Of a stretch of 64,000 bases of DNA, positions 29,325-33,934 are shown in pieces. The translations under genes were made by a program, and so were the position numbers. The stretch is from positions 868,001 through 932,000 of the forward strand of contig NZ_CP140614.1 of the NCBI RefSeq assembly GCF_036556685.1, written 5' to 3'. This DNA is from Sulfurospirillum sp. 1612. Its GTDB lineage: Bacteria; Campylobacterota; Campylobacteria; Campylobacterales; Sulfurospirillaceae. Positions within the stretch are counted from its first letter, which is position 1. Each line of letters opens with the position of its first letter. The notes under the pieces are model-generated. The model was not told the origin of the DNA. It did no database searches and worked only from the letters and a program-made list of their open reading frames with translations.

Positions 29325-29459
29325 ATGAAAAGAACATTTCAACCCCATAATACTCCGAAGAAAAGAACCCATGGTTTCAGAACGAGAATGAAGACAAAAA
29401 ATGGTAGAAAAACAATCAATGCAAGACGAGCAAAAGGTAGAAAAAGATTGGCTGCATAG
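29325..29459 (+). CDS. rpmH: 50S ribosomal protein L34
   Basis: A 44-residue, very basic ribosomal protein beginning [19 protein letters not shown] and ending GRKRLAA, which is unmistakable L34. ATAAAGGAAAC precedes the ATG. It starts the standard rpmH-rnpA-yidD-yidC cluster, although dnaA and oriC are not next to it in this window. Confidence 0.98.
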
Positions 29460-31742: not shown

Positions 31743-32600
31743 ATGATTAGAATAGAAGCAAACACCTTAGAAGAAGCATACCTAAACGCCGCTAGCGAGT
31801 TAGGGTGCTCTATCACGGAATTGGATATTGAGATTGTTCAAAATGCCAATTCTGGATTTTTAGGTCTGTTTAAAAAAACCGCTATTATCGAAGTAATCAA
31901 GAAAGGTTCTAAGCGTACAGAGAGCAAAAGAGCTAGAAATACAGAAGAAAATCTACCTAAAAAAGAGAAGACTTTCGAAAAGAAAAAACGACAAAAACAA
32001 CGCAAAGAAGACCACCACAAAGAAGAATCACGCAAAAACCATGTCGCACATACTTCTAAAAAACATACCGACACGCAAAGAAGAAATGAGAGTGCTCATG
32101 ATAAGATAAAACAACCTGAAATCAAAGTCGATATGGATGAAGCTATTAAAACCATCACCGTCGATATCAATAGACTATTTAAAGAGAGTTGTTTTGATAT
32201 TGATCTTATAAAAGTGTCACAATACAACGCCGATACGATATTGATTGAATTCTCAGGCGAAGATGTCGCCCTTTTGATTGGCAAAGAAGGATACCGTTAT
32301 AAAGCGCTTTCTTATTTATTGTACAATTGGATTAATATCAAATACGGACTCAATATTCGCTTAGAAATTGCAGAATTTTTGAAAAATCAAGAAGAGATGA
32401 TTACCAAATATCTGGGACCCGTTATTGAGCGTGTGCGCAACAATGGACGTGGACAAACAAAAATCTTGGATGGTGTCTTGATAAAAATAGCATTAGAAAA
32501 ATTACGAGCGGAATTTCCTGAAAAATATGTCGGTATTAAATCCGGCAGAGAGGGTGGTCGCTTTATCGTCATCAACGATTTCAATAGGAAAAACAAATAG
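31743..32600 (+). CDS. jag: RNA-binding protein Jag/KhpB
   Basis: A 285-residue cytoplasmic RNA-binding protein. The Jag N-terminal domain (about 1-52, MIRIEANTLEEAYLNAASELG) is followed by a highly charged Lys/Glu/His linker (55-125), a KH domain with the GKEGYRYKALSYL motif (about 180-195) and an R3H-type end. It starts two bases after yidC with an A-rich RBS. The C-terminal stop TAG overlaps the proposed ATA start of mnmE. In other bacteria Jag/KhpB affects cell-wall and membrane homeostasis. Confidence 0.93.
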   Translation: MIRIEANTLEEAYLNAASELGCSITELDIEIVQNANSGFLGLFKKTAIIEVIKKGSKRTESKRARNTEENLPKKEKTFEKKKRQKQRKEDHHKEESRKNHVAHTSKKHTDTQRRNESAHDKIKQPEIKVDMDEAIKTITVDINRLFKESCFDIDLIKVSQYNADTILIEFSGEDVALLIGKEGYRYKALSYLLYNWINIKYGLNIRLEIAEFLKNQEEMITKYLGPVIERVRNNGRGQTKILDGVLIKIALEKLRAEFPEKYVGIKSGREGGRFIVINDFNRKNK

Positions 32601-33934
32601 ATACCATTTCAGCCATTTCTACAGCCCACGGCATCGGCTCAATTGCCGTCGTTAGAGTGAGTGGGCCACTCGCCTTATTGATAGCACAAAAAATCACACA
32701 AAAAGAGAATTTTACACCACGATATGCTTCACGATTAGCGCTGTATGATGCTCATTCTGAAATGATAGATGATGCCATCGTGATTTACTTCAAAGGACCT
32801 CATTCCTTTACGGGGGAAGATATTGTGGAGTTTCAATGTCATGGAGGTGTGGTTGTAGCAAGTATGATTTTAGAGACGGTTATCCAACATGGTGCGCGCT
32901 TAGCAACACCGGGAGAATTCTCAAAAAGAGCTTTTTTAAACGGCAAGATTGACCTCACAGAAGCGGAGGCCATATCAAAGCTCATTGAAACCAAAAGTGT
33001 GGATGCTGCGAAGATTTTAGCGCGACAAATGCGAGGCGAATTGCGTGAATTTGTCGAAAAAATACGAGATGAATTGGTCGATATACTGGCTTATGTTGAA
33101 GTCAGTATTGATTATGCTGAAGAAGATTTACCTGAAGATATCTTGCAACAAATCATCAAAAAACTGGATTTATTAGAGCGAGATTTGAAAATCACTTATG
33201 AGAGTTCAAAGCGCAGAGAAGGGCTTATTGAAGGCTTTAAAGTGGCAATCGTGGGCAAACCAAATGTAGGCAAAAGTTCACTGTTGAACTCTTTCTTAAG
33301 TTATGAACGTGCTATCATCAGTGATGTAGCAGGGACGACACGAGATACGATTGAAGAAGATATTAGACTCGGTACTCATCTGATTAAAATCGTCGATACA
33401 GCAGGTATTCGAGAATCCAATGATTTGGTAGAAAAAATAGGAATCGAGCGCTCAAAAAAGGCCATTGAATCGTCTGATATTGTGATTGCTTTATTTGATA
33501 ATTCACGAGAATTTGATAGAGAAGACCAAGCTATTATGGATATTTTGGATGCTTGTGATACGTCAATTCCTATTATCAAGGCCTTGAACAAAATCGATTT
33601 GCCGTCTCGGTTTGATGTGACGCATTTGCATGGAGATTTTATTGAGATATCAAGTATTTACGATAATACGTTGATTTTAGAAAAATTAAAAGCAATCTTG
33701 GAGCGCTCATCACAAGATGATGCCTTGCTTTTGATTTCAAAAAGACAAATTGATGCGGTTTATGGGGCACTTGAAGCGATTTATGAGAGCAAAAATGTAC
33801 TTAATGAGGGTGAATTAGAGATTTTTGCGTTCCACCTCAATGAGGCTATCGCAAAAATGGCATCGATTACCAAAAATTTTGACCGTGATGAGATACTGGA
33901 TAAGATGTTTGGCAGTTTCTGTCTAGGCAAATAA
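32597..33934 (+). CDS. mnmE: tRNA modification GTPase MnmE (probable ATA start)
   Basis: A GTPase that with MnmG builds the cmnm5 group on wobble U34 of tRNAs. Counting from ATA 32597 it has 445 residues: a formyl-THF-binding N-domain (DTISAISTAHGIGSIAVVRVSG), a helical region, a G domain with P-loop GKPNVGKS (220-227) and DTAG, and the C-terminal FCLGK zinc/catalytic Cys motif. The first canonical start, GTG 32657, would remove 20 conserved residues. No ATG, GTG, TTG or CTG lies between it and the in-frame stop at 32585. AGGA sits seven bases before ATA, which overlaps the jag stop. Confidence 0.9.
   Translation: MDTISAISTAHGIGSIAVVRVSGPLALLIAQKITQKENFTPRYASRLALYDAHSEMIDDAIVIYFKGPHSFTGEDIVEFQCHGGVVVASMILETVIQHGARLATPGEFSKRAFLNGKIDLTEAEAISKLIETKSVDAAKILARQMRGELREFVEKIRDELVDILAYVEVSIDYAEEDLPEDILQQIIKKLDLLERDLKITYESSKRREGLIEGFKVAIVGKPNVGKSSLLNSFLSYERAIISDVAGTTRDTIEEDIRLGTHLIKIVDTAGIRESNDLVEKIGIERSKKAIESSDIVIALFDNSREFDREDQAIMDILDACDTSIPIIKALNKIDLPSRFDVTHLHGDFIEISSIYDNTLILEKLKAILERSSQDDALLLISKRQIDAVYGALEAIYESKNVLNEGELEIFAFHLNEAIAKMASITKNFDRDEILDKMFGSFCLGK

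Follow-up and report, generated by a model that had tools for sequence, protein, structure and literature searches.

The window analyzed here is a 64,000-nt stretch of Sulfurospirillum sp. 1612 (NZ_CP140614.1, 868,001–932,000, forward strand), drawn from a finished, single-contig genome of 2,377,931 bases; coordinates below are those of the window unless another locus is named. The features at the junction of jag and mnmE are collected in Table 1. The product of jag gives a weak match to the NCBIfam model Jag_EloR, below that model's cut-off, and tblastn hits place the gene identically in other loci.

Table 1. Features of the jag–mnmE junction (window coordinates)
Feature	Position	Strand	Remarks
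jag (RNA-binding regulator Jag/EloR)	31743..32600	+	ORF; gene 5' of mnmE
Shine-Dalgarno (SD) AGGA	32586..32589	+	within jag Arg codon AGG; 7 nt before ATA
mnmE (tRNA modification GTPase MnmE/TrmE)	32597..33934	+	445 codons, ATA to stop
proposed mnmE start ATA	32597..32599	+	TA common to jag stop (ATAG)
jag stop TAG	32598..32600	+	overlaps proposed mnmE start
GTG, first canonical codon of mnmE frame	32657..32659	+	likely choice of standard gene finder

The two genes are joined by ATAG (32597–32600), in which the stop and the proposed start share nucleotides. From an in-frame stop (TAG 32585–32587), the mnmE frame reads GAA AAA CAA ATA GAT ACC ATT TCA GCC ATT TCT ACA and continues GCC CAC GGC ATC GGC TCA ATT GCC GTC GTT AGA up to GTG 32657, and none of the codons ATG, GTG, TTG or CTG is found between that stop and this GTG. 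A preliminary description of this DNA had reported this lack of a start codon, as well as an ATA at 32597 that follows AGGA by seven bases and overlaps the jag TAG; the sequence confirms both points.

The MnmE N-terminus and its codons in Campylobacterota

The preliminary description also held that about 20 residues matching the N-terminus of MnmE precede the GTG. These residues, IDTISAISTAHGIGSIAVVR, do match the conserved MnmE N-terminus. When they are included, the Pfam TrmE_N match covers residues 1–117, compared to 19–117 without them, and the score against NCBIfam NF003661 is 387.2 bits rather than 362.6, the cut-off being 380. Translated from ATA, the product belongs to the MnmE/TrmE family, scoring above the NF003661 cut-off and matching TrmE_N, MnmE_helical and MMR_HSR1. 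It matches the Thermotoga TrmE structure 1xzp with an E value of 1.5e-85 (phmmer), and residue 1, encoded by ATA 32597, aligns with Met1 of that protein, the Met of MDTIVAVATPPG. Patterns of substitution were also informative. Across 33 loci of the comparison described below, 68% of the differing codons in the disputed 20-codon stretch are synonymous in the mnmE frame, while the two shifted frames give a synonymous share of only 4–6% (0.04–0.06 versus 0.68). Judged by these alignments and substitutions, the 20 residues ahead of GTG belong to the MnmE protein. No canonical start compatible with this N-terminus is available to mnmE.

We compared 120 Campylobacterota loci, classifying as non-canonical those without ATG, GTG or TTG near the conserved mnmE start. 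Thirty-three loci fall in this class, and in all 33 a codon of the mnmE frame overlaps the jag stop. This codon is ATA, as part of ATAG or ATAA, in 31 loci, CTG in L050 and CTA in L054. Because the next codon in the latter two, ATC, is better spaced from the SD (6 nt) and matches the start in the alignment, AUC is probably the likelier start there than the stop-overlapping CTG or CTA. At two loci (L031 and L035), ATA lies three codons further upstream, and both the 7-nt distance from AGGA and the overlap with the jag stop are kept. The ATA state is found throughout the genus, in most Sulfurospirillaceae and in related lineages; non-canonical loci include a complete Sulfurospirillum cavolei record (L055) and two single-contig genomes (G018 and G020). 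Canonical starts overlap the jag stop in only 14 of the other 87 loci, compared to 33/33 for the non-canonical class, although this contrast is partly circular, as the overlap was used in calling the starts. One caveat here is that part of the ATA conservation may be due to the jag stop, which constrains the T and A. Eight of the 31 ATA loci carry ATAA, where a single A-to-G change would give an ATG start and a TGA jag stop, yet ATA is retained. Because TGA is in ordinary use (it ends 95 of the 404 genes sampled from the genome), ATA is not forced in these eight.

Sequences resembling an SD precede the start in 33/33 non-canonical loci, with AGGA at 7 nt in 24 of them, and a spacing of 6–8 nt between AGGA and ATA is kept in nearly all. 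The codon is retained in relatives (31 ATA loci) together with an SD at normal spacing, mostly 7 nt, which supports the earlier placing of ATA 32597 where a coupled start would be expected. Mean SD pairing energy is −4.1 kcal/mol for non-canonical loci versus −0.5 kcal/mol for canonical ones. Among the 23 non-canonical loci in which the motif was located, 22 use AGG as the jag Arg codon, whereas AGG accounts for only about 5% of the Arg codons sampled from the genome; both contrasts are inflated by shared ancestry, with only 4 independent pairs on well-supported branches. The idea that mRNA structure hides the SD and start was not supported, as the unpaired probability is about 0.64, and 0.81 in the window. 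One initiator tRNA was found, of ordinary appearance, with a CAU anticodon and a GGG/CCC stem.

On a tree of MnmE sequences from which the N-terminus had been removed, all 33 non-canonical loci lie inside one 53-row clade (support 97). The start state requires 7 changes on this tree, at least 4 of them on well-supported branches. Start states can interconvert, since close relatives use ATG (L039, L040) or GTG (L014, L022), and the direction of change is not fixed by the tree. Comparison of the junctions suggests that the loss of three bases could turn an ATG-type join, AAATAATGGAC, into AAATAGAC, with its ATA start and TAG jag stop. In the same tree, a metagenome-assembled genome titled 'Helicobacter pylori PMSS1' (L098) falls with Arcobacteraceae and is probably a mislabelled bin.

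Initiation of mnmE translation

These comparisons indicate that mnmE translation very probably initiates at AUA 32597. If the ATA were a sequencing or assembly error for ATG, as a single genome viewed by itself might suggest, the same codon should not recur in the genomes of many species, complete as well as draft, and ATG at 32597 would moreover destroy the jag stop wherever the join is ATAG. The recurrence of ATA at the same place in many independent assemblies refutes this explanation, in line with the preliminary description, which had considered chance error less likely in view of two such genes. Initiation could instead occur elsewhere, either at GTG 32657, the first canonical codon in the frame, to give a shortened MnmE, or at the near-cognate ATT 32606. 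The GTG would cost 20 conserved residues and put the protein under the NF003661 cut-off, while ATT 32606 varies freely in relatives (ATT, ATA, ATC) and lies 16 nt from AGGA, and we consider a start at either codon very unlikely. Equally hard to credit is –1 frameshifting close to the 3' end of jag (GGAAAAAC), which would yield a Jag–MnmE fusion and make an mnmE start unneeded. It is true that the mnmE frame is –1 relative to jag and that G AAA AAC lies shortly before the jag stop in the window, but this falls short of the full slippery heptamer (A AAA AAC). Codons at this point of jag differ between loci (AAA AAC AAA, AAA ACA AAA, AAA GCT CCA, AAA AGC, CGT GAA AAA, AGT GAA CCA) and rarely fit X XXY YYZ, such that no conserved slippery heptamer was found in the jag–mnmE overlap among the compared loci; the open mnmE frame of L047 and L090 extends just one codon upstream of ATA. 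Since no slippery heptamer is kept across loci, a conserved fusion is highly improbable.

AUA might also be used by de novo initiation, driven by AGGA and independent of jag translation, with the overlap reflecting mere compaction. The strong, well-spaced SD and accessible site would suit such a mode, and since mRNA structure does not conceal SD or start, AUA could serve without coupling; AUA and AUU starts of S. aureus work with an extended SD and are not described as coupled (PMC13009471). The overlap itself argues the other way, being exact in every non-canonical locus and rarer in canonical ones (33/33 versus 14/87, with the circularity noted above). We view independent initiation as rather unlikely, and consider it reasonably likely that mnmE translation depends on translation of jag.

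In the coupled mechanism that we favor, the ribosome finishing jag at UAG 32598–32600 would remain in place, held by pairing of AGGA to 16S rRNA, and this same ribosome would presumably restart on the overlapping AUA, by SD-assisted termination–reinitiation. Ordinary initiator tRNA would read the AUA codon and, because its gene looks ordinary (CAU), an A·C mismatch is predicted at the third codon base. The weak AUA codon may keep MnmE synthesis low and tied to that of Jag, with the SD and the stop–start overlap offsetting part of the weakness. MnmE output may also be sensitive to IF3. Both re-initiation and weak codons are sensitive to this factor (PMC2268962, PMC10158994), and excess IF3 lowers re-initiation (PMC2268962). 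In Sulfurospirillum sp. 1612, infC (L131, G000 C1, near 79385) starts with TTG rather than AUU or AUA, and hence lacks the start codon usually associated with IF3 autoregulation.

Near-cognate starts have been described for infC, ccpN and citZ (AUA) and cvfC1 (AUU) of S. aureus and for infC and pcnB (AUU) of E. coli; the three AUA starts have an extended SD and give about 10–30% of AUG output (PMC13009471). The mnmE start resembles these cases in its conserved AUH codon with an SD, which would limit output, and in an initiator tRNA that would be mismatched at the third base only. It differs in the gene concerned, in the phylum (Campylobacterota) and in the fusion of the codon to the jag stop. 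Coupling by termination–reinitiation is established for ATGA overlaps (PMC6728339; reviewed in PMC12548453). Like ATGA and TGATG junctions, that of jag and mnmE has a 4-nt stop–start overlap with the SD inside the upstream gene, as is usual there (PMC6728339), but the overlap is ATAG or ATAA and the start near-cognate. Near-cognate starts and overlap coupling are thus each known, while their conserved combination in mnmE appears new. Neither AUA starts of mnmE nor a conserved AUA-overlap combination was found in the literature searched (most subscription journals lay outside it), and a C. jejuni Ribo-seq paper makes no mention of the genes studied here.

rnpA and other candidate starts

The preliminary description had listed rnpA as a second gene without a canonical start, which holds; as its start, ATA 29456–29458, overlapping the rpmH stop (TAG 29457–29459), is better supported than the first core Ile codon, 29471. 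Of 107 loci, 83 lack a canonical codon in the rnpA frame over the interval that runs from 60 nt ahead of the rpmH stop to 30 nt past it. The codon overlapping that stop in these 83 loci is TTA in 43, ATA in 33, CTA in 4, CTG in 2 and GTA in 1. Campylobacter-like genomes have GTGA or TTGA at the rpmH–rnpA junction. In two Helicobacter-like loci (L217 and L218, from G052 and G078), the frame relation of rnpA to rpmH differs from that in other families; no canonical rnpA start lies near the junction, and an in-frame canonical codon occurs 38 nt upstream, inside rpmH. Like mnmE, rnpA lies in the same operon, is in the –1 frame, overlaps the preceding stop with its candidate start and lacks a canonical codon. 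Unlike in mnmE, UUA is commoner than AUA, the state is nearly phylum-wide and no clear SD is seen. A third-base mismatch cannot explain UUA, and rnpA is less well explained than mnmE.

To estimate how rare such starts are, we used the window plus twenty 20-kb stretches of the same genome (400 kb; 404 predicted genes). Convincing non-canonical starts among the 404 genes were limited to mnmE, rnpA and one ORF for a secreted protein in L118. A coding-potential screen of these genes, of limited sensitivity, returned mnmE amid many false leads and left rnpA outside the top 40. Scans for AUH codons with an SD and for stop-overlapping codons added one candidate, the ORF in L118. This ORF (L118:11693–15946; G000 C1, about 857693) has 1417 codons and a signal-peptide-like beginning, IIKTSKFVHFLFVLLFPIYGMSA, and lacks a canonical start for 13 codons; AUA or AUC is the candidate start, and the ATA follows AAGGAAAAGGATCA and overlaps the TAA of an upstream gene with a GGDEF-like end. 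We also ran NCBIfam scans on 20 other genes of the window that have space ahead of the first canonical start, and no further clear case emerged. AUA is a rare start in Sulfurospirillum sp. 1612, and there is no general code change.

Implications for start codon choice

One speculative extension, to which we attach rather low confidence, is that ribosomes of Campylobacterota may restart on any codon that overlaps the preceding stop: AUA or AUC for mnmE, and AUA, UUA or CUA for rnpA. Geometry of termination, more than codon–anticodon match, would then determine where translation begins, and weak, factor-sensitive control would apply to two genes of tRNA maturation in a single operon. For genome annotation, gene finders limited to ATG, GTG and TTG would drop the first 20 residues of MnmE in most Sulfurospirillaceae. 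The mnmE gene represents a deep, naturally replicated case of near-cognate initiation, in which sister species have gone to ATG or GTG, and these species allow one to measure what AUA costs and how far it depends on the overlap, the SD and IF3. More generally, mnmE bears on the choice of start codon by a ribosome that has just terminated.
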